Positions 1 to 63,132 of a stretch of 64,000 nucleotides of DNA are shown piece after piece. The translations under genes and the position numbers were made by a program. The DNA is taken from NCBI GenBank assembly GCA_944325875.1, contig CALVBU010000003.1, positions 62,001-126,000 on the forward strand, in the 5' to 3' direction. Every line of letters starts with the position of its first letter. The stretch's first letter is position 1. The stretch comes from Candidatus Gastranaerophilales bacterium. GTDB taxonomy: Bacteria > Cyanobacteriota > Vampirovibrionia > Gastranaerophilales > Gastranaerophilaceae. The notes beneath the pieces were generated by a model. It was not told the origin of the DNA and searched no databases. It saw only the letters and a program-made list of their open reading frames with translations.

Positions 1-861
1 ACGGGAAGTATATTTTGTACGAAAAGAACTGGGACATCGAGTGATGCTGATAACCAAGGTTCTTATGCGACAATAAAAACAATACCTACAAATCTATCAT
101 ATATTAATTATATTTATGGTTTTGATATAAATACAGGTAAATATTATACCAAAATCGAATATGGAGAGGGATGGGTAGAAATTGGGTCTTATATTCCTAC
201 TACTGAGAATAAAGAATTATATTTAATAAATATAGCTCCTGAATATTATATAAGGATTGGGTCAGGGTCTGATACAGCATATAATAAAAATTCCACTGAT
301 TTAAATGCTTTTAAAGTATATATTGACGGTAATTTAGTATATCAACCTTGCTTAAAAGTACCATACACATTAAGTAATGCGGGTGAGTTAGGTTCAAAGA
401 TTGTTGATGTAGCTTACAGAAATCGTGTTCAAGATTTGTACGAACAAAAGGGCGAAGCCTTATACTATACCATTGATGAACAAAACCAAAACTTCACATT
501 GCCAATGGCTGATATATACGGAATGATTACCAATAGAGCTGATGTTAATTTGGGTAATATTACTGAAGTTGCAAAAAACTTAATTAAAAGTTTAGCGGGT
601 TCTCTTGTTGAAGTTACGGATAATTATGCAGTATTTGACAATAAATTTTGTATTCAATATGGGATAAGTAATGCTCCATACAACGGTGCTTATATTAATT
701 TTTCTAAAAAATTCAAAACTGCAATTAGTGTTGTAGCTGTTGATGCTTCTTTTGGAGCGCAAAACATTGAAACATCCGCAGGAGAATTAACGGCGTCTTC
801 TTTCAGAGTTAGAAACCTAGCAAGCCATAATGTTTATTGGATTGCTGTAGGGACAGTTTAG
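1..861 (+). CDS. phage tail fibre, C-terminal part (5' truncated)
   Basis: The frame is open from base 1 to the TAG at 859-861, so 286 residues of a longer protein are visible and the start lies outside the window. The last ~60 residues are beta-rich and finish with YWIAVGTV, as in the gp53-like receptor-binding tip of phage tail fibres, where the chain usually ends in a YWIAIG-type strand. The upstream part is Tyr/Asn/Gly-rich with no recognised catalytic motif. Position ahead of lysis genes fits a tail fibre or receptor-binding protein of the prophage. TTG 436 is an internal codon rather than a start, because no ribosome site precedes it and the frame is open upstream. Function is inferred from the C-terminus and context only. 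Confidence 0.65.
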   Translation, partial: TGSIFCTKRTGTSSDADNQGSYATIKTIPTNLSYINYIYGFDINTGKYYTKIEYGEGWVEIGSYIPTTENKELYLINIAPEYYIRIGSGSDTAYNKNSTDLNAFKVYIDGNLVYQPCLKVPYTLSNAGELGSKIVDVAYRNRVQDLYEQKGEALYYTIDEQNQNFTLPMADIYGMITNRADVNLGNITEVAKNLIKSLAGSLVEVTDNYAVFDNKFCIQYGISNAPYNGAYINFSKKFKTAISVVAVDASFGAQNIETSAGELTASSFRVRNLASHNVYWIAVGTV

Positions 862-876
862 TTAGAGAGGTATATA

Positions 877-1626
877 ATGATTGAAAATTACACATCAAAA
901 GAATATGCAGATAAAGCAGTTGAAGCAAATGCATTGAAAAAAATGCTATATATTTTATTGACTCCGACAGAATTTGAAAAAACTGTACTTGATTTCACAA
1001 CACAAATAGTTCAACAACCGATATTCAATGAAGATGGCGAACAAATCGGGACTGAGGACGTTGAAATTCAAGTGCCTGTAATGATTGAAAAAGAAGTGCC
1101 TATTTATGATGAAGAGGGCAACCAAACAGGTGTTGAAGTTATCAAAGTTCAATCTTCACACAAAGAAAAATATATGGAAGATATTGCGACATTGGTTATC
1201 GCAGAGCCTAATTATTATATTTGTACAGAAGATAATTATACATACGGCGATATTAATGAAAATTTAGAAACTGAAAAAATAAAAAATAGAACTCTAGATT
1301 TTTACAAAAATTTTATTGTGACTTCTTGGGGTGCATTTAGAAAAACACCGAAAGGTTATTCTTCTGCTGTTGAAGCGGTAAATACTGTATTTAATATGGT
1401 TAATGTTGCACAAGCTTTAACAGAAGATTTGGCAACTCTTTTAATTTTCTATGAAGTGCCCGATTTTACAAAAGCAGAACAATGTACAGAAGAATGGCTT
1501 GTCGCACATCAGAAAAAACATAAAGCTTGTGACTTGCAAACTTTTATGAGTTGGTATTTAGAATTTCAAACAGTATGGGCTAAAACTCAATATACTGATA
1601 TTCCAATACCTGAAATGGAATTGTAA
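877..1626 (+). CDS. phage protein of unknown function, downstream of tail fibre
   Basis: This 249-residue protein starts at an ATG preceded by GAGAGG at good spacing, 15 bp after the tail fibre stop. I do not recognise the family. Residues ~47-90 hold an imperfect internal repeat: an N/D-E-x-G-x-Q-x-G-x-E/D-V-E turn followed by acidic/valine-rich strands occurs twice. The C-terminal half is helical with several Trp residues. There is no signal peptide or membrane segment. Its place between the fibre and the lysis cassette is typical of fibre-assembly chaperones or other accessory tail proteins, but nothing in the sequence proves this. Base composition matches its neighbours. Confidence 0.6.
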   Translation: MIENYTSKEYADKAVEANALKKMLYILLTPTEFEKTVLDFTTQIVQQPIFNEDGEQIGTEDVEIQVPVMIEKEVPIYDEEGNQTGVEVIKVQSSHKEKYMEDIATLVIAEPNYYICTEDNYTYGDINENLETEKIKNRTLDFYKNFIVTSWGAFRKTPKGYSSAVEAVNTVFNMVNVAQALTEDLATLLIFYEVPDFTKAEQCTEEWLVAHQKKHKACDLQTFMSWYLEFQTVWAKTQYTDIPIPEMEL

Positions 1627-1707
1627 TTGCTAATCACAAAGTTAGTTTAGATGTGGGGAACAATCCCCACGTTTACGGAAAATAAAAAGAATAAAAAAGG
1701 AGGATTT

Positions 1708-1947
1708 ATGAAAAAATTCGCAATTATGTTAGGTTTATTACTTTTTTGTTGTCAAGCAGTATTGGCTGAAGAAATTACTACAAATAAACCAATACAAAAT
1801 TTTGAGGACAATAGGGCTACTGTTGCCATTCAAAAACAGCCAACTACAGAAAACACACAAAAGCAATCAGTAAAAAATAACTGGTTTTGTATTGTGCTAC
1901 AAATCAACGGTAAAGTTCTTGATTCTACCTTACCTATGGCAAAATAG
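1708..1947 (+). CDS. small secreted phage-region protein
   Basis: This 79-residue protein begins at ATG 1708, chosen because AAGGAGG sits about six bases upstream; an earlier in-frame start has no ribosome site. Residues 1-20 form a signal peptide (two Lys, a hydrophobic core, then a VLA cleavage site before Glu-Glu). The CC pair inside the core does not fit a lipobox well. The mature part is short, polar and Gln/Asn/Thr-rich, with a single later Cys. It lies between tail and lysis genes, where small exported proteins (spanin-like, superinfection exclusion) are common. No homology is recognised, so the role is unknown. Confidence 0.55.
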   Translation: MKKFAIMLGLLLFCCQAVLAEEITTNKPIQNFEDNRATVAIQKQPTTENTQKQSVKNNWFCIVLQINGKVLDSTLPMAK

Positions 1948-2002
1948 TAATGGAATTGTATTTTATTTGAGCATTAGATTTTAATTCTTGGGAGTAACAA
2001 AT

Positions 2003-2512
2003 ATGTGCGTTGAATGTTTTGAAAAACTCCCTCGCTTTTATTATAAAGATAGGGAGTATATAACTTGGCAAGATGATGAATTTTGCCGTGTAGGATTTTC
2101 TGAAATACCTGATATAGGTAACAAAGAAATTAATGTAAAAGTAATGTCTGAGGCTGAAATTAAAGCAGCTAAGAAAAAGCCTCTTTTTTTGAAAAATGCT
2201 ATTGATGTTTGTTTGATAGATAAAATTAAAAATAAAACTTATACTTTTACTATTAAAATATATTATGACTACGATGGAGCAAGTATTGCAAGAATTTTTT
2301 GGCGGCTTATTGGGTCAAAAGAAAATATTGAGTTTAAAGTTGCCGCATTAATTCATGATGTACTTTGTGAAAATCATCATTATGTTGATAATGACAGGTA
2401 TTTCGCGGATAGAGTTTTTGAACGCTTACTTGAAGTTGGTGATGTTGGAGCTTTCCGCAGATGGTTGATGTTTCATTCAGTTGATAATTTTCAGAAGTTT
2501 TGTGGGTGGTGA
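2003..2512 (+). CDS. DUF1353 family phage protein
   Basis: This 169-residue protein starts at ATG 2003, eight bases after GGAG; a TTG 15 bp upstream lacks a site. Residues ~95-135 carry the DUF1353 signature: YDYDGASIARIFW, then AALIHDVLCENHHY, then an R/D-rich helix with AD..F. DUF1353 proteins occur in phages and prophages, often close to lysis or tail genes; their biochemical role is not established. It overlaps nothing upstream and is followed directly by the holin-like gene, suggesting one late transcript. Family call is fairly sure, function open. Confidence 0.7.
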   Translation: MCVECFEKLPRFYYKDREYITWQDDEFCRVGFSEIPDIGNKEINVKVMSEAEIKAAKKKPLFLKNAIDVCLIDKIKNKTYTFTIKIYYDYDGASIARIFWRLIGSKENIEFKVAALIHDVLCENHHYVDNDRYFADRVFERLLEVGDVGAFRRWLMFHSVDNFQKFCGW

Positions 2513-2523
2513 AAATAGGAAAT

Positions 2524-2886
2524 ATGTCAAGAGAAGAAACAATTGCGCGTTTATTTGAAAAGATAGATAAACAAACAGAAATATTGAACAAAGTTTCTGA
2601 AAGTGTTGCGACACTTAATGAACGTTCAAAGAATTATGATGAACGCTTAAGAAACGTAGAAAAATTTGTAGGCAGAATTGAAACCCTTGAAAAGAAATCC
2701 GATGTTATGGATTGTGCTTGCTCTAATAACAAAGAAAAAATTGATAAAATTACTGCTATAGAAAAAGATATTGGAAAAATTAAGAGGGATTATTGGTGGA
2801 TTAGCGGTATTATGAGTTTTTTGGGCTGGATTTTAGGTCTAGCTATAGGTTTAATAATTAGTTTGATAGGCTTATTTAAGCAATAA
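2524..2886 (+). CDS. coiled-coil, C-terminally anchored holin/XhlA-like protein
   Basis: About 120 residues from ATG 2524; GTG or TTG codons at 2502-2509 are also possible starts and the ribosome site (TAGGA, close spacing) does not decide firmly. Residues 1-85 are a charged heptad-like coiled coil, followed by a short Lys-rich stretch and one strongly hydrophobic C-terminal segment of ~25 residues (WWISGIMSFLGWILGLAIG and on). This layout is that of XhlA-type haemolysin/holin partners located just before endolysins. The endolysin gene follows 15 bp downstream, supporting a lysis-cassette role. Exact family unproven. Confidence 0.6.
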   Translation: MSREETIARLFEKIDKQTEILNKVSESVATLNERSKNYDERLRNVEKFVGRIETLEKKSDVMDCACSNNKEKIDKITAIEKDIGKIKRDYWWISGIMSFLGWILGLAIGLIISLIGLFKQ

Positions 2887-2901
2887 GAAATGGAGAAAAT
2901 T

Positions 2902-3420
2902 ATGAAAATATTTTTAAATCCAGGACACGGTGGTGGAGATCCAGGAGCTATATCTCAAAATGGATTAAAAGAAAAAGACATCACAAAAAGAATTTGCGAT
3001 ATTCTTGCCCAAAAGCTTCGTAATGTTGGACATTTAGTTATGGTTTATCAAGAACAAAAATCCTATACTGAAGTATCCAAAGAAGAAAATAAAAGTGGCG
3101 CAGATTTGTTTATATCCGTTCATTGTAACAGTTTTTCAAGTTCATCTGCAAATGGGGTAGAAACATTTTATTATCCAATATCTAAAAATGGTGCAAGGCT
3201 TGCAAAATGTATTCAAGATGCTTTATTAAAACAAACCGGACTTTTTAACCGAGGATGCAAAATGCGTAGAGATTTACATGTACTAAAAGCTACAAAATCA
3301 CCGGCAGTTTTAGTAGAAACAGCGTTTATTTCTAATCCTAAAGAAGAAATATTATTAAGGGACAAACCTGAAATCTTTGCAGAGGGAATTTTCCGAGGAA
3401 TAAAAGATTATATTATTTAA
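2902..3420 (+). CDS. prophage endolysin, N-acetylmuramoyl-L-alanine amidase (Amidase_3)
   Basis: 172 residues; the start is ATG 2902 because GGAG at 2892-2895 gives proper spacing, while ATG 2890 would overlap that site. A stand-alone Amidase_3 domain: NPGHGGGDPGA with zinc ligand His9, Glu24 in LKEKDI, His74 in ISVHCNS, and catalytic Glu139 in VLVETAFISNP. The enzyme cleaves the amide bond between MurNAc and the stem peptide of peptidoglycan. It lacks a signal peptide and any wall-binding domain, as expected for a holin-dependent endolysin. It closes the lysis cassette and is followed by a strong terminator. A chromosomal relative with AMIN domains lies at 5986-7833. Confidence 0.88.
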   Translation: MKIFLNPGHGGGDPGAISQNGLKEKDITKRICDILAQKLRNVGHLVMVYQEQKSYTEVSKEENKSGADLFISVHCNSFSSSSANGVETFYYPISKNGARLAKCIQDALLKQTGLFNRGCKMRRDLHVLKATKSPAVLVETAFISNPKEEILLRDKPEIFAEGIFRGIKDYII

Positions 3421-12037: not shown

Positions 12038-12616
12038 ATGACAGACAATTGCACAAACAATTTAATAAACCCGAATTGGGCTAAACACGGATATATACAA
12101 GTCTACACCGGTAACGGAAAAGGTAAGACAACAGCCTCTCTTGGGCTTGCAATGAGAGCTTTGGGCAGATGTTGGAAAGTCCTGATTATTATGTTTATGA
12201 AAGGTGGAAATGACTATGGAGAACTTAATTCATTTAGAAACCTATCCACTGAAATTGCTAATAATTTAACTATTATCCAAGCAGGACCAGATCGAATCGT
12301 GTACCAAAACAACAAAACCGAAGCTGATGGTAACCTTATAAAAGAAGGCTGGGCCTTGGCTAAAAAAGCTATACAAAACGATGAATATAACCTGATTATC
12401 CTAGATGAAGCAAATATTGCAATTGATATGGGTTTTATTGATTTGTCTGAAATGCTTGATGTACTAAAAAACAAACCTGAAGAAATGGAAATTGTTCTTA
12501 CAGGCAGAAATGCCAAACAAGAAATAATTGATATTGCCCATCTAGTATCTGAAATTAAACCTGTAAAACATTACTGGGATACTGGAATAGCGGCTAGAAA
12601 AGGCATCGAATATTAA
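12038..12616 (+). CDS. cobO: cob(I)yrinic acid a,c-diamide adenosyltransferase, copy 1
   Basis: 192 residues. P-loop GNGKGKTTASLGLAMRALG near residue 27 and the ILDEANIAIDMGFI and VLTGRNA motifs identify the CobA/CobO/BtuR family, which transfers the adenosyl group of ATP to cobalt of corrinoids. The N-terminal ~12 residues are an extra tail compared with copy 2 at 22033-22566. No other cobalamin synthesis gene is nearby, so it probably acts in corrinoid salvage. Its stop codon directly abuts the stop of the convergent small gene. Confidence 0.9.
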   Translation: MTDNCTNNLINPNWAKHGYIQVYTGNGKGKTTASLGLAMRALGRCWKVLIIMFMKGGNDYGELNSFRNLSTEIANNLTIIQAGPDRIVYQNNKTEADGNLIKEGWALAKKAIQNDEYNLIILDEANIAIDMGFIDLSEMLDVLKNKPEEMEIVLTGRNAKQEIIDIAHLVSEIKPVKHYWDTGIAARKGIEY

Positions 12617-14949: not shown

Positions 14950-15106
14950 ATTTTGCAACAAAAATCACCGTGTCTTTTGGCACGGCTCTATCACCAGCTT
15001 TTTAAAAAATCGGAGGTCTAAGTCGAAAATGCTTTTCTCAACTGTTAGTTGGTAGCCCCCCCCCCCGAAATTCTATCTATTAGCGTTTTTTGCATACATT
15101 CCTCCT
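14950..15106 (-). promoter_or_regulatory. poly-G leader A with small ORF and hairpin upstream of prepilin A
   Basis: Read on the minus strand: AAAGGAGG, ATG 15095, ten codons, G11 (15066-15056), then a small CAACT/AGTTG stem-loop, a block nearly identical to leader B, a CCGTG/CACGG hairpin followed by TGATTTTTG, and the prepilin's own RBS and ATG. With 11 G the ORF ends after 16 residues (MQKTLIDRISGGGATN, stop at 15045). With 12 G (or 9) it would run on for 43 residues through the hairpin. Interpreted as a slippage-controlled leader peptide or attenuator. Confidence 0.6.
15056..15066 (-). repeat. homopolymeric tract, 11 G on minus strand (leader A)
   Basis: Eleven consecutive C on the + strand. 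It follows TTTC at codon 10 of the leader ORF, a position equivalent to the other four tracts of the window. Confidence 0.9.
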
Positions 15107-22032: not shown

Positions 22033-22566
22033 GTGTTAGAGCATGGTTATATTCAAATCTATACTGGAGATGGAAAAGGAAAAACAACAGCTTCATTGGG
22101 GCTAGCTCTAAGAGCATTGGGTCACGGATGGAAGGTTCTTATCATCCAATTCACAAAAGGTGACAGTGCTACTTCTTATGGGGAAATAATTACATCATCA
22201 AAATTCTTACCTAATCTTGATGTAGTTCAATTTGGTATGGATAGAGTTTGTTACTCACACAATGTATGTATGGATGATTTTAAAGAAGCTAAAAGAGGTT
22301 GGGAATTTGCTAAAAAAGCTATTAACTCCGGGGAATACCAACTTATTATTTTGGATGAAATCAATATTTGTACAGCAATGAATATGATTAAAGTAAGTGA
22401 AGTAAAAGAAGCATTACTTCACAAACCAGAAAATCTTGAAATCGTATTAACAGGTCGCTATGCTCATCCAGAATTAAAAGCAATGGCTCATCTTGTTACC
22501 GAAATGAAACCGATCAAACATTACTTTGATACAGGAGTTATGGCAAGACAAGGTATTGAATATTAA
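22033..22566 (+). CDS. cobO: cob(I)yrinic acid a,c-diamide adenosyltransferase, copy 2
   Basis: 177 residues starting at GTG 22033, with GGAGG about ten bases upstream. P-loop GDGKGKTTASLGLALRALG, IILDEINICTAMNMIKVSE and VLTGRYAHPELKAMAHLVTE place it in the same CobO/BtuR family as 12038-12616. The two differ through most of the chain, so this is an old duplication or separate acquisition rather than a recent copy. A long leader precedes it and a T9 terminator follows. The division of labour between copies is unknown. Confidence 0.9.
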   Translation: MLEHGYIQIYTGDGKGKTTASLGLALRALGHGWKVLIIQFTKGDSATSYGEIITSSKFLPNLDVVQFGMDRVCYSHNVCMDDFKEAKRGWEFAKKAINSGEYQLIILDEINICTAMNMIKVSEVKEALLHKPENLEIVLTGRYAHPELKAMAHLVTEMKPIKHYFDTGVMARQGIEY

Positions 22567-27675: not shown

Positions 27676-27820
27676 TCACCGTGTCTATTGGCACGGCTTG
27701 CTTTTCAGCTCTTTTCGTTCAATCGGAGGTCTAAGTCGGAAATGCTTTTCTCAACTGTTAGTTGGTAGCCCCCCCCCCCGAAATTCTCTCTATATCTATC
27801 TTTTGCATACATCCTCCTTT
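27676..27820 (-). promoter_or_regulatory. poly-G leader B with small ORF and hairpin upstream of prepilin B
   Basis: On the minus strand: AAAGGAGG, overlapping starts ATG 27812 and ATG 27808, G11 (27779-27769), and the block matching leader A. From 27812 the frame passes the tract and ends at 27705 after 35 residues, including GGGGYQLTVEKSISDLDLR. From 27808 it stops after 16 residues (MQKIDIERISGGGATN). A CCGTG/CACGG hairpin (27679-27696) lies between the ORF and prepilin B. Which start is used decides whether 11 G is the on or off state. Confidence 0.6.
27769..27779 (-). repeat. homopolymeric tract, 11 G on minus strand (leader B)
   Basis: Eleven C on the + strand at the same place relative to the conserved block as the tract of leader A. 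Confidence 0.9.
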
Positions 27821-47261: not shown

Positions 47262-49628
47262 ATGGATATTTTATCAAATAGCTTAAAATCATTAGAATTT
47301 GACAAAGTATTAGAAAAGTTAGCAAGCTTTGCTAAAATTAAGCAAAGCAAAAATTTATGTCTTGAATTATTACCATTTGAGAATAACGAGAAAATAGAAT
47401 CTGAAATTTTATTCACAAGAGAAGCAAAACGAATTTTAGACATCCCAAACGATATTCCTATAGGATTTGTCGCTAATGTGTCTGAAATTCAAAAAAATAC
47501 ACTCGTAAGTTATCTTACAGAAAGTGAACTTGTCGATATTGCAAAAACTATGCGATCCTCAAGGCTTGTTAAAAATTTTCTTAACGATAATTGCGAACAA
47601 AACTCCAAACTATTTGGGCTTGCAATGAATCTTATTTCATTCAAAGAACTTGAAGATAGAATTTTTGATACTTTTGATGATGATTTACAAATCAAAAAAG
47701 ATGCAACACCTGAATTAAAAGGATTATTTGCATCCTTGAGAGATACTGAAAAAATTTTAAAATCAAAAGTTACAGACCTTTTGAACTCTGCAGATTTTAC
47801 AAAACACCTGCAAGAAACAATTTACACAACCCGCGATGATAGGATTGTTTTTCAGGTAAAAGCACCAAGTAAAAATAAAGTAAAAGGAATTGTGCATGAC
47901 GTATCAGCAACAAATAAAACTTTTTATATCGAACCTGAATGTATTGTTCCTTTAAATAATAAAATAAGAGAAATTCAGTCTCAAATACACGCTGAATATG
48001 TAAGGATTTTAGCCGAACTTACTCAATCTGTAAAACAAGAATTAAAATCAATAAAGCACAGTGAAGAAATCTTGGCAAAAATTGATTTTCACTTTGCAAA
48101 AGCTCGTTATGCTGTAAAAATTCAAGCCGTAGAACCAGAAATCGCAAAAGATCGAATTATTGAATTTGAAAATATGAAACACCCGCTATTAATCGGGACT
48201 GTTGAAAATATAGTAACGAACAACTTTGAAATAGGTAAAGAATATAAATCAATAATCATAACAGGTTCAAATACAGGCGGAAAAACAGTTACAATAAAAA
48301 CTATAGGATTATTTATTCTTATGACAAGAGCCGGAATGTTCCTGCCTTGCACAATGGCAAAAGTATATCCGTTTAAACAAATATTTGCTGATATAGGGGA
48401 TGCTCAAAGTATTCAACAAAGTCTTTCGACTTTCTCATCTCATATGACAAATATCATTGAAATAATAAACAAAAGCGATGACAACACATTCGTACTGCTT
48501 GATGAAATTTGTGCAGGAACAGATCCACAGGAAGGTGCAGTTCTTGCCAAAGTTATATTAGAACACCTAGCAAACAAAGGGACTTACTCAACGATTACAA
48601 CGCATTATGGAGAGCTAAAAGCTTTAGAATATTCAAATTCATATTTTAAAAACGCTTCAGTTGAATTTGATACTCAATCGCTCAGACCAACATATAAACT
48701 CTTGATAGGAATCCCCGGGCTAAGTAACGCAATATCAATTTCAGCAAACTTAGGGCTAAGTTCTGATATTGTAAATAAAGCAAAAGAAATTCTTACATCT
48801 GAAAAAGATCAGTCCATAATTGTAGTAGAAAAACTGCAAGAAACGCAACAGAAATTGTCAGAAAACCTAAAAGAAGCAGAAGAACTTAAAGAAGATTCTG
48901 AACTTATAAAAAAAGAATATGAAGAAAATCTTTCAGAAGTAAAAAAAGATAAGAAAAAAGCAATAAAGAATATTAAAGAAAAATTTAGCCACGAAATGCT
49001 AGCTGTAAAAGCTGAAATTAAAGATATTCTGGATGAATTACGCAAAGAAAAATCCGAAAAAATTGCTCGCCGTTCTTATGCAAGACTTGCGAAACTAGAA
49101 CAAGGCTTCCACGAAAAAGTCGGGAAATATGAAGAAAAAGAACAATATGCAGAAATCAACTGGAACGAATTAAAAGTTAATGATAAATTAATTCTCAAAG
49201 AAATTCATCAACCAGTAACAGTTCTTTCTTTGCCTGATAAAAACGGAAACATCTTTGTTCAAATGGGAAATATCAAAACAAAAATAAAGAAAAATAAACT
49301 TGCGCCTTATGACAAAACCTTTGAGAAAAAATCCTCAGGATATAAGCCATCAAGCTTTACTTCTTTTGAACTAAAACGCACAAACCTTTCTAATAGGCTT
49401 GATTTAAGAGGATATAGGGTAGAAGATGCGCTTGATGATTTGGAAATTTATCTTGACCAAGCAAGCTTGGCAAACCTCTCCCCAGTAACTATCATTCACG
49501 GACACGGCACAGGAGCTTTAAAAAGTGCAATAAGAGATTTTCTTTCAACTTCTCCTTATGTCGCAAAATTCAGACCAGGAGAAGATAGTGAAGGTGGAGA
49601 CGGCGTTAGTATTATTGATATAAACTAA
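47262..49628 (+). CDS. mutS2: endonuclease MutS2
   Basis: 788 residues. Lacks the MutS mismatch-binding domain; has the core/lever region, the ABC ATPase (Walker A GSNTGGKTVTIKTIG, Walker B FVLLDEICAGTDP), a long coiled coil (~510-620) and a C-terminal Smr nuclease domain (LDLRGYRVEDALDDLEIYL; TIIHGHGTGALK). MutS2 suppresses recombination and rescues stalled or collided ribosomes. The RBS is weak (TAGGATATGG). Its promoter must lie in or beyond the repeat element, which could therefore influence its expression. Confidence 0.96.
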   Translation: MDILSNSLKSLEFDKVLEKLASFAKIKQSKNLCLELLPFENNEKIESEILFTREAKRILDIPNDIPIGFVANVSEIQKNTLVSYLTESELVDIAKTMRSSRLVKNFLNDNCEQNSKLFGLAMNLISFKELEDRIFDTFDDDLQIKKDATPELKGLFASLRDTEKILKSKVTDLLNSADFTKHLQETIYTTRDDRIVFQVKAPSKNKVKGIVHDVSATNKTFYIEPECIVPLNNKIREIQSQIHAEYVRILAELTQSVKQELKSIKHSEEILAKIDFHFAKARYAVKIQAVEPEIAKDRIIEFENMKHPLLIGTVENIVTNNFEIGKEYKSIIITGSNTGGKTVTIKTIGLFILMTRAGMFLPCTMAKVYPFKQIFADIGDAQSIQQSLSTFSSHMTNIIEIINKSDDNTFVLLDEICAGTDPQEGAVLAKVILEHLANKGTYSTITTHYGELKALEYSNSYFKNASVEFDTQSLRPTYKLLIGIPGLSNAISISANLGLSSDIVNKAKEILTSEKDQSIIVVEKLQETQQKLSENLKEAEELKEDSELIKKEYEENLSEVKKDKKKAIKNIKEKFSHEMLAVKAEIKDILDELRKEKSEKIARRSYARLAKLEQGFHEKVGKYEEKEQYAEINWNELKVNDKLILKEIHQPVTVLSLPDKNGNIFVQMGNIKTKIKKNKLAPYDKTFEKKSSGYKPSSFTSFELKRTNLSNRLDLRGYRVEDALDDLEIYLDQASLANLSPVTIIHGHGTGALKSAIRDFLSTSPYVAKFRPGEDSEGGDGVSIIDIN

Positions 49629-49673
49629 AAACTTTTATAATTATGCAGAACACAATAAAAAATGGAGGATTAC

Positions 49674-50706
49674 ATGAAAAACTTTGAAAGAGCAAAGCTT
49701 CAAAACGCTCGCTGTGACGCAATTTTCAATGAGGGGGGGGGGGCTTTCCATTGATATAGTCTACTTATGGGTAGATGGAAACGATCCCGAAATTATAAAA
49801 AAACGAAATTATTGGAAAGAAAAATACGGAAAACAAATTAATACAAAAGCAATTGATCCTTGCAGATTTGTTGACAATAATGAATTAAAATACTCTTTAC
49901 GATCTTTGGAAAAGTATGCACCTTGGATAAACAATATCTTTATAGTTACTGACAGACAAATTCCTAAATGGCTTAATACAAATCACGAGAAAATACACAT
50001 AATTGACCACTCAGAAATTATGCCCAAAGATGCACTCCCAACTTTTAACTCTTGTGCAATTGAAACTTGTATTTGCAATATAAAAGGACTATCCGAATAT
50101 TTCTTGTATGCTAATGATGATACATTTTTTACAAATAAGGTTTCACCTGATTTCTTTTACACAAAAAATAATTATCCTATATTTAGAGTAAGACATAAGC
50201 TAAAAACTCCCTCTGACTATCCTCACGTAAAAACCCTTGTAAAGGCATACACTTTAATCGAAAAGCAATTTAAACAAAAATTTTACTATGACCCACACCA
50301 TTCTATTGATGCCTACTTAAAATCAGATATTATCAAATGTAATGAGTTATTTAAAAAAGAACTATTGAGTACTACATATAGTAAATTTAGAGAGTCTGAT
50401 AATATATCAAGGGTAATATACTCAGCGTATTCTTGCAGCATAGGACACGGAGAATTAAAACTAATTAAAAAAATTGACGACAAACTGCCAATTATAAAGA
50501 AAATATCAAAAATCTTAACCCGCGATTATCATAAAGACTCAATATATTTTCACACCTGCAACCACAATTACAAAGAAAAAATATTAAAATACAAGCCTGA
50601 ACTTATTTGTATTAACGACAATGAAGACACAACCAATGAAGACAGAATAAGGATGCAAATATTTTTAGATGAATATTTTCCAGAAAAATCTTCCTACGAA
50701 CTATAA
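49674..50706 (+). CDS. Stealth-family sugar-phosphate transferase, phase-variable, out of frame as assembled
   Basis: The body carries CR1 (IDIVYLWVDGNDP), CR2 (NNELKYSLRSLEKYAPWINN; IFIVTDRQIPKWL; FLYANDDTFF), CR3 and CR4 (DSIYFHTCNHNYKE) of Stealth hexose-1-phosphoryltransferases, which build phosphate-linked capsule or surface glycans. The only start with a ribosome site is ATG 49674 (GGAGG five bases upstream). Its 19 codons lead into G11 (49733-49743), after which that frame stops at once. With 10 G (or 13) the frames join into a 343-residue protein. An internal ATG at 49729, in frame with the body, has no ribosome site. Confidence 0.85.
49733..49743 (+). repeat. homopolymeric tract, 11 G (Stealth gene)
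   Basis: Eleven G beginning in codon 20 of the Stealth reading frame. At 11 the gene is out of frame; 10 restores it. Confidence 0.9.
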
Positions 50707-50777: not shown

Positions 50778-51941
50778 ATGGATTTAAACAAAATAAGAAA
50801 AGAGTACGAGCTGGTAGATTTGTTCTGCAATCTTGCAGAAATTCCATCTCCATCATTAAAGGAAGAAAAAGTATCACAATGGATTAAAGATTATTGCGAC
50901 AAAAATAATATCCCTTGTGAATTTGATGATTATCATAATGTGTATATAAATATTCCTGCGACGGAAAACACTAAACCATCACTTATGCTATCATCTCATA
51001 TGGATGTAATCGGAGATGACAGCCCTGTAAAAGCATATCTTGACGGAGATTTAATCCGAGCAGAAGGGAGAACTCTTGGAGCTGACGATAAAGCTGGAAT
51101 TGCAAATGCCCTATACTTAGCAAAAACTATTGCAAACTCTGAGATGAAACACGGAGGTTTGGAAGTTATCTTCACTAGAGATGAAGAATCAGGAATGTCA
51201 GGCATTAAACATGTTAATTTTGAAAAATTAAAATCAAAATACGTCTTAGTATGTGACAGCGACAGCTTAGGTCAACTAATGACATCAGGAGCAAGCTATA
51301 CACTTGCTACTATTGAAGTTAATTCATTCAGAGGCGGACACTCTGGTATAGATATTGCAGACCGAACAAGAGAGAATGCAGCTAAATTAATTGCTGATAT
51401 AGTATCAAACCTACCTCAAGGAGTATTTTATTCAGATGAAAACCACAACGTTGTAACCTCTTGCAATATCGGTGGAATTGTCGCAGGAAATCCTGATGTT
51501 ACGAACGTTATAAATACTTATGGAAAAGCAACTTACTCAATAAGAAGCTCTAGCAGAAAACATGAAGAAGAACTAAAAGATAGAATGTGCTTCGAAATAG
51601 ATGATTTTAATAAAGAATACAGAGGCATAGCACAAGCTTCTGTAAAATTTGAAGAACATCTTCCACCATTCGAAAAAGCTGATGATGATTATATTCCTAT
51701 CCTTTTTGAAGCAGTAGCAAAAAAAGTAGGTGTAACACCAGAAATTTCATCATTCCACGCTGGAGCTGAAACTCATATTTATGCTAATAATTGTAATTCT
51801 AATAAAGAAAGCTTTGCACCTTATCTTGTTGGACTTGCTGATGTTTGCAATATGCACTCACCGGAAGAATACGTTGACTATAAATCAATCCTAAAAGGAC
51901 AAGAACTAATTCAAGAATTCTTTAAAGCATATAATGCATAA
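50778..51941 (+). CDS. M20-family metallopeptidase (PepT-like tripeptidase)
   Basis: 387 residues with AGGAG upstream. Di-zinc sites: SSHMDVIG (His, Asp), TLGADDKAGIANAL (bridging Asp), TRDEESGMSG (catalytic Glu and metal Glu), LVCDSDSLG (Asp) and SSFHAGAETHIYAN (His). A dimerisation domain sits in the middle (SFRGGHSGIDIADRTRENAA). Cytosolic aminopeptidase/tripeptidase, closest to PepT or PepT-like M20B enzymes. A TGTGAT-N12-ATCACA inverted repeat (50740-50763) lies just ahead of the ribosome site. Confidence 0.88.
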   Translation: MDLNKIRKEYELVDLFCNLAEIPSPSLKEEKVSQWIKDYCDKNNIPCEFDDYHNVYINIPATENTKPSLMLSSHMDVIGDDSPVKAYLDGDLIRAEGRTLGADDKAGIANALYLAKTIANSEMKHGGLEVIFTRDEESGMSGIKHVNFEKLKSKYVLVCDSDSLGQLMTSGASYTLATIEVNSFRGGHSGIDIADRTRENAAKLIADIVSNLPQGVFYSDENHNVVTSCNIGGIVAGNPDVTNVINTYGKATYSIRSSSRKHEEELKDRMCFEIDDFNKEYRGIAQASVKFEEHLPPFEKADDDYIPILFEAVAKKVGVTPEISSFHAGAETHIYANNCNSNKESFAPYLVGLADVCNMHSPEEYVDYKSILKGQELIQEFFKAYNA

Positions 51942-56950: not shown

Positions 56951-57722
56951 ATGGAAAACACACAAATAGCTTTAAAAACAATTAGGGGGGGGGGGCATAA
57001 CCCTTTGTAATAGTAGGTTTTCAGCCTTTACTCTCGCTGAAACATTGATTACACTAGGTATTATTGGTATAGTTGCGGCAATGACATTGCCAACATTGAT
57101 TAACAAAACACAAGATAAAGAATTTAAAACTGCATTCAAAAAACAATATTCAGCATTTTCACAAGCAATGTTACAAGTTTATATGGAAGATGGTTCAACT
57201 TACGAAGAAGTAAATTGGACAAATATGCCTGTATATATTTGTAAGATACAAACTCAAATGAAAGTAGTAAAATCTGGCTTACAATGTGATAAAATTAAGA
57301 ATATGACAGAAGAAAATTTTGGAACTACCTCAGAATGGCCTAACACGGGCAAACATTACTGGCATACTGACAATAAATGGTTTGATAAAAAAGGTAATCC
57401 CCAAGGCATAAACGGTGGTTATAGATTACTTTCATATATATTACCTGATGGGGCAATTGTAAATTACAACTGCTATAACCAAATTTTTATAGATGTAAAT
57501 GGCTATAAAAAACCAAATGTAATTGGAAGAGACATATTTTTTTTCAGACTCGAATCGAAAAATTTGATACCAACAATAGTGCCAAGTTCAGGTCAAATAA
57601 GGCCAAATGGTTGTGCTATGGGTGGCACAAATTCAACACCCATATTAACTAAAGACAATATTGAAGAAGATTGCAAATCTGGTTCAGGCTGGGGCTGTTC
57701 TTTGTTATATTTACTGGAATAA
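56951..57722 (+). CDS. phase-variable type IV prepilin-like protein D, out of frame as assembled
   Basis: AGGAGG precedes ATG 56951. Eleven codons lead to G11 (56985-56995), and this frame ends four codons later (HNPL, stop). The downstream frame encodes an intact prepilin: FTLAETLITLGIIGIVAAM from 57027, shared motif DVNGYKKPNVIGRDIFFF, Cys-rich C-terminus. With 10 G (or 13) the two join into a 256-residue protein with a ~24-residue leader ending RFSA before Phe. No other start with a ribosome site lies upstream of the hydrophobic core, so the gene is off at 11 G. Confidence 0.85.
56985..56995 (+). repeat. homopolymeric tract, 11 G (prepilin D)
   Basis: Eleven G starting in codon 12 of the prepilin D reading frame; one G too many for the prepilin to be in frame. 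Confidence 0.92.
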
Positions 57723-62383: not shown

Positions 62384-63132
62384 TTAAAATTTTATAGGGT
62401 AATCTTCAGGAACCTCAAACCCGCTATCATATATTAATTGCAGACAACTTTGAGGATGAGCTTCTTGAGTACTAGAACCTTTACACCCCTGTATTATTGA
62501 ATTTCTTTGATTAGGTTTAAAACTTAATCTCTTAAATAAAGATATATAGCTGTTATTACTATTAGTATATGGATAATAATGAACTTGAAAAAGATCTTGA
62601 CCAACTTTATTTGGACCTTTATCACCATTAACATCAAATCCAAACATAACATACCCATCATTAATCAAGTGAAATGCAATTACTGAACCATCTTCTAAAA
62701 ATAATCTATGACAAAATGCATAATATCCAACTTTATTTTTATCTGTATTATAATTATAAACCTTATATTTTACGGCATTTGGGTTTAATTTCATATATTT
62801 AACAATCATATCAGCAAAACATTCATAAGCTTCTGTAGATTGACCATTCATTAGATTATGACACTGTTTAAATGTATCTGGAACAGAACCAGTTTCTGAA
62901 TTGATAGTAGCTAACATTGTCTCCATATTAGCAGCCATTTTTTTTAACTGTGTGATATATACCTTTTCTCTATATTTAGACACAACTGTGGGCAAAGTCA
63001 TTGCCGCAACTATACCAATTATCCCAATCGTAATTAGAACTTCTGATAATGTAAATCCATAAAAATCATTTATAAAGCTTAAATAAGGTTGCCCCCCCCC
63101 GGAAATAGCTTATTCTTTCTTAATTTCAGCAT
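62384..63132 (-). CDS. phase-variable type IV prepilin-like protein E, out of frame as assembled
   Basis: On the minus strand AGGAG precedes ATG 63132. Ten codons (MLKLRKNKLF) lead to CC followed by G9 (63100-63092), and this frame stops five codons past the tract. The prepilin frame is open across the tract but blocked upstream by TAA at 63110-63112. With 10 G (or 7) the frames join into a 249-residue protein whose leader ends FYG before FTLSEVLITIGIIGIVAAM. Here the cleavage-site residue is the canonical Gly. Shared motif DVNGDKGPNKVGQDLFQV at ~190. Off at 9 G. Confidence 0.85.
63092..63100 (-). repeat. homopolymeric tract, 9 G on minus strand (prepilin E)
   Basis: Nine C on the + strand at codons 11-14 of prepilin E; one G short of the in-frame length. 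Confidence 0.9.

Follow-up and report, generated by a model that had tools for sequence, protein, structure and literature searches.

Does the number of Gs in a homopolymeric tract decide whether a gut bacterium makes one of its predicted glycan-modifying enzymes? The question is raised by a gene for a Stealth-family phosphotransferase in a 64,000-nt stretch of DNA (the window) from a member of the Gastranaerophilales, the gut Melainabacteria, which are widespread and mostly uncultured. The genome that holds the window (G000) belongs to the genus Candidatus Scatousia, and the other genomes compared are numbered in the same way. The GC content of the window is 32.9%, its runs of A or T reach 9 nt at most, and overlapping words of eight Gs were observed 18 times versus 0.12 expected from dinucleotide shuffles. 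The Stealth gene comprises the following elements:

49664..49668, + strand: Shine-Dalgarno sequence GGAGG of the Stealth gene, read from the sequence; the arrangement of Shine-Dalgarno sequence and ATG is common to most tracts of the genome
49674..49732, + strand: N-terminal extension MKNFERAKLQNARCDAIFNE, 5' of the tract and translated, judging by its open frame and the in-frame equivalents in orthologues
49729..49731, + strand: alternative ATG at the tract edge, without a Shine-Dalgarno sequence, in the Stealth frame at G11; present in G011, not in G004 or G007
49733..49743, + strand: exact G11 tract, putative switch, from the sequence and the G-word counts; 59 nt past ATG 49674
49744..50706, + strand: body of the Stealth phosphotransferase, from Pfam; relatives CpsY and GNPTAB; dN/dS 0.12 versus G011
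49752..49754, + strand: TGA closing the frame of ATG 49674 at G11, read from the sequence
about 49750-49830, + strand: conserved region CR1, from Pfam
about 49864-50178, + strand: conserved region CR2, from Pfam
about 50578-50703, + strand: conserved region CR4, from Pfam

ATG 49674 is the only start backed by a Shine-Dalgarno sequence, which lies five bases upstream. At G11 its frame reads MKNFERAKLQNARCDAIFNEGGGAFH and ends after 26 codons, and with one G fewer it runs on into a complete Stealth protein of 343 codons; the initial annotation had described this same dependence on one G. When the sequence was read directly, zero ATG, GTG or TTG codons were found in the Stealth frame between the tract and CR1, so that any start depends on tract length. 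The initial annotation had also held that use of ATG 49729 (MRGGGLSIDIVYLW) would free the protein from tract length; this was mistaken, because ATG 49729 precedes the tract. A start at this codon would leave the Stealth gene ON at G11, a reading that we regard as very unlikely. Its frame is open, the ATG is conserved in G011, where the tract is likewise G11, and the resulting N-terminus would be as short as in orthologues without a tract. However, the codon has no Shine-Dalgarno sequence, it is missing in G004 and G007 despite their tracts, and where an orthologue has its tract in frame or interrupted, the start used is the upstream one with a Shine-Dalgarno sequence. On this reading, too, the length of the tract would govern expression.

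Stealth hexose-1-phosphate transferases include CpsY, capsule polymerases such as meningococcal SacB, and GNPTAB. In the protein studied here, the Pfam families of CR1, CR2, and CR4 (PF17101, PF11380, and PF17103) all scored above their cut-offs, while CR3 had zero Pfam matches up to an E-value of 10. The closest solved relatives are GNPTAB (GlcNAc-1-phosphotransferase) and CpsY of M. tuberculosis, and the same two rank first in Foldseek, where the poor AlphaFold model used (built from 8 sequences, pLDDT 56) is of low confidence and adds weak support only. Judged by its sequence, the assignment of the protein to the Stealth family, already proposed in the initial annotation, is solid. It shares with known Stealth enzymes the three conserved regions and the closest solved chains, and differs from them in that CR3 is undetected by Pfam and that the gene stands alone, outside a capsule cluster.

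This isolation is apparent from the two neighbours:

47262..49628, + strand: mutS2, upstream neighbour, from its translation; overlaps the mutS-family match G000:C3:109910-110896
50778..51941, + strand: M20-family peptidase, downstream neighbour, Pfam PF01546

No capsule, export or glycan genes were found beside the Stealth gene, its flanks being mutS2 and the peptidase. In G009 and G005, both without Stealth, mutS2 directly adjoins the peptidase, and these empty sites identify the Stealth gene as single-gene cargo at the mutS2/peptidase site. The solitary position reported at first was thus confirmed and extended by empty sites in two congeners. Elsewhere in the window, phage-like genes (a tail-like protein and an amidase) occupy the left end (1-3420), possibly the end of a prophage, and two paralogues at 12038-12616 and 22033-22566 resemble cobinamide/cobalamin adenosyltransferase (P-loops GNGKGKTT and GDGKGKTT).

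The Stealth gene is present in 9 of the 13 genomes of the genus, and its tract lengths and states were compared at the level of species. The tract is G11 and the Stealth frame is OFF in G000, G011, and G004. Stealth is in frame (ON) in G007, which has G12 plus one extra T, and in G006, where a T interrupts the tract (GGGGGGTGGGGG). The extension is in frame with Stealth in G008, which has only G6, and in G012, which has no tract; G010 also lacks the tract and has Stealth in frame, and in G001 (Candidatus Scatousia excrementigallinarum, contig DVIU01000218.1) the contig breaks off inside the tract. The tract recurs in some congeners, twice as G11 OFF and once as G12 ON. From the in-frame extensions of G006, G007, G008, and G012 it follows that translation covers the segment 5' of the tract. 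Outside the genus, Stealth genes carry no tract and their proteins begin directly at M...DLVYLW, unlike the tract-bearing N-terminal extension found here. In the Stealth tree the copies of the genus form one group with support 99/96 (G010 is not in the tree). The Stealth genes of G000 and G011, both out of frame, show a dN/dS of 0.116 and hence purifying selection; such a value would not be seen in a gene that is always OFF, so the Stealth protein is expressed either in part of the cells or for part of the time. A Stealth pseudogene was rejected on this value.

Considering that the tract could be peculiar to this gene, as its first description implied, the whole genome is informative. The Stealth tract is not an isolated case: G000 (2.2 Mb) contains 48 tracts of 9 or more Gs, and 44 of the 47 with distinct contexts lie 25-62 nt after a Shine-Dalgarno sequence and ATG with an open frame, versus 1.9% of random positions. 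The number of tracts is 3 to 116 in congeners and reaches 115 in the remaining genera of the family; in other families of the order tracts are few or absent. Two layouts were recognised. In the first (38 copies), a short leader ORF of its own (MQK..I..ISGGG) holds the tract; next come a conserved sequence and a prepilin gene with its own Shine-Dalgarno sequence. In the second, the tract lies within the gene, near its start; these genes are mostly prepilins, plus Stealth, and the non-pilin glycan genes among them are RgpF-like (over the Pfam cut-off) and GT2-like (below the cut-off). The RgpF-like gene (L042, G000:C14:26681) has G12, one over its in-frame length. The window itself holds four further examples:

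56985..56995, + strand: G11 in a prepilin-like gene, out of frame, with Stealth-like architecture, read from the sequence
63092..63100, - strand: G9 in a prepilin-like gene, out of frame, with Stealth-like architecture, read from the sequence
15056..15066, - strand: G11 in a short leader ORF of the first layout, 5' of a prepilin gene
27769..27779, - strand: G11 in a short leader ORF of the first layout, 5' of a prepilin gene

G000 has 115 matches to the prepilin N-terminal motif, 111 of them over the Pfam cut-off, and many of these genes are paralogues that differ in their C-terminal parts. Taken together, the tracts suggest that this gut relative of cyanobacteria has an extensive ON/OFF switching system.

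The separate leaders have features of their own. The tract is G11 in 32 of the 38 copies, and the conserved stretch contains CCTCCG, complementary to the CGGAGG of the pilin gene itself, plus a CCGTG/CACGG hairpin. The G12 frame passes through CCTCCG, and the G10 and G11 frames usually stop just past the tract. Phase-variable translational or attenuation control is a possible role for such a leader; its fold is ambiguous because CCUCC can pair with the tract too. A scan of the conserved prepilin leader against Rfam returned zero families above the gathering scores. In one leader copy (L009) the G10 frame runs stop-free into the prepilin, which suggests that the separate-leader layout may be derived from the fused one. 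A G tract lies within about 300 bases of the end of many contigs in G021, G015, and G022, as would be expected if repeats or heterogeneous lengths disrupted assembly.

The tracts of the second layout were then considered by frame, each assembled length being set, modulo 3, against the length that would be in frame, for 96 genes from several genera. We found that 10 tracts were in frame, 68 were one G too long, and 18 were one too short (P = 1.8e-7 for so few in frame and P = 5e-8 for long over short, the genes being related). The excess persisted when similar sequences were collapsed into clusters, with 8 in frame, 53 one too long, and 15 one too short at a threshold of 0.8 (n=76), and 4, 24, and 10, respectively, at a threshold of 0.7 (n=38). 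Moreover, the usual length tracks the frame, being 13 where the in-frame length is 12, 11 where it is 10, and 12 where it is 11, and the lengths within a class are narrow and non-random. A single equilibrium length was rejected as the cause of the excess, since length follows frame. In C. jejuni, insertions are favoured at G8-G9 and deletions at G10-G11 (PMC8224891, PMC4085013). If this deletion bias is valid here, tracts that mutate away from the in-frame length should mostly end up one too short, the opposite of the excess observed. Probably, then, the one-too-long state is maintained, either as an OFF state one favoured deletion away from ON or because transcriptional or translational slippage yields some product.

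The second of these options leads to a different reading of the locus, in which the tract is held one G over and RNA polymerase slippage or +1 ribosomal frameshifting supplies a steady, low amount of full-length protein. The excess among genes and clusters, the failure of a single equilibrium length, and the deletion bias of C. jejuni at G10-G11 all speak for it. On the other hand, 28 of the 96 genes are in another state, among them Stealth genes with an interrupted or in-frame tract, and no recoding signal was identified; we consider such recoding unlikely. A broader proposal is that a common 5' leader cassette (Shine-Dalgarno sequence, ATG, short leader, and G tract) is kept one G beyond the in-frame length across many pilin, glycan, and Stealth genes of the family. 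Full-length protein would then arise through routine transcriptional or ribosomal slippage, or else the OFF state would be primed, with ON a single deletion away, and tens of surface genes would be coordinated in this way. We offer this as speculation, with perhaps a modest chance of being right.

The dependence of length on frame also bears on whether the tract works through its structure as DNA or RNA, for instance as a G-quadruplex promoting gene conversion, with the frame effect as a by-product. A G-quadruplex upstream of Neisseria pilE promotes gene conversion, and eleven Gs suffice for a two-tier quadruplex; most tracts, too, are found where genes of large prepilin families begin. However, Stealth is a single-copy gene with no conversion donors, and a structural role does not account for lengths that follow the frame, which makes this explanation extremely improbable. 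We give as little credence to the view that the gene is a pseudogene or the homopolymer was miscounted in assembly. Homopolymer runs are indeed error-prone, but the one-too-long excess recurs in separate genomes, random errors would leave about a third of the tracts in frame, and the purifying selection between two OFF orthologues argues against a pseudogene.

The explanation that we prefer, and consider likely, is slipped-strand phase variation of the Stealth glycan phosphotransferase, resting mostly in the OFF state. Translation would begin at ATG 49674 and pass through a short, dispensable N-terminal extension that holds the tract. Slipped-strand mispairing would alter the G count and so move the Stealth hexose-1-phosphate transferase into frame or out of it; the assembled G11 would be OFF, or weakly ON from ATG 49729, and one G fewer would give full expression. 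The enzyme would then attach a sugar through a phosphodiester to a glycan, which presumably lies at the surface, and cells would differ in that glycan. Tract-length control of Stealth, the core of the initial annotation, is well supported by the states of the orthologues, by purifying selection, and by the lineage-wide set of tracts. The remaining steps are expected rather than observed: the tract would have to mutate at a high rate within the population, and the surface location and the change of glycan are predicted by analogy with the family (PMC5974469, PMC3989065). A role in immune evasion is suggested by analogy only. Loss of mismatch repair was rejected as the cause of long tracts, since mutS and mutL are present and intact in the genome. 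With both genes intact, single-base slippage should be lowered and the switching rate may be modest. Besides this, three points count against phase variation as proposed: the dominance and narrow lengths of one-too-long tracts are not predicted by free-running switching alone, no neighbouring glycan genes point to an acceptor or a location, and the tract-edge ATG could allow some expression at G11.

Such a locus would resemble the poly-G/poly-C loci of Campylobacter jejuni, Neisseria, and Helicobacter, where long G tracts lie near the 5' end of surface-structure genes and a one-base change toggles the frame. The strains of C. jejuni carry 12-29 poly-G/poly-C contingency genes (PMC8224891), and 115 candidates for phase variation are listed for N. 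meningitidis (PMC5084427). Unlike these systems, the present one belongs to a different phylum and is known from sequence alone, its tracts lie in an N-terminal extension before the FTLAE prepilin motif or Stealth CR1, and its one-too-long excess is strong. A further comparison is provided by the Stealth protein 20D of Haemophilus parainfluenzae strain 20, which the portion of the source consulted connects with a phosphate linkage in the O-antigen (PMC3989065). Like the enzyme studied here, 20D is a bacterial Stealth enzyme, and its predicted product is a sugar phosphodiester within a surface polysaccharide (PMC3989065). According to the same text, 20D sits in an O-antigen locus, unlike the lone Stealth gene here (PMC3989065), and phase variation of 20D is not described in that part of the paper.

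Poly-G switching and Stealth enzymes are both already known. The novelty lies in the lineage, in how large the set is, in a leader design common to pilins and Stealth, and in the one-too-long excess; a literature search, thin on subscription journals, did not turn up any description of phase variation from Gastranaerophilales or Melainabacteria. If the switching is real, the phase-variable repertoire of the Gastranaerophilales would be as large as that of the classic mucosal pathogens (48 tracts here and up to 116 in a congener), and it would span many prepilin-like genes plus some glycan enzymes. In the genomes of individual strains, many surface genes would then be annotated wrongly, as absent or defective.
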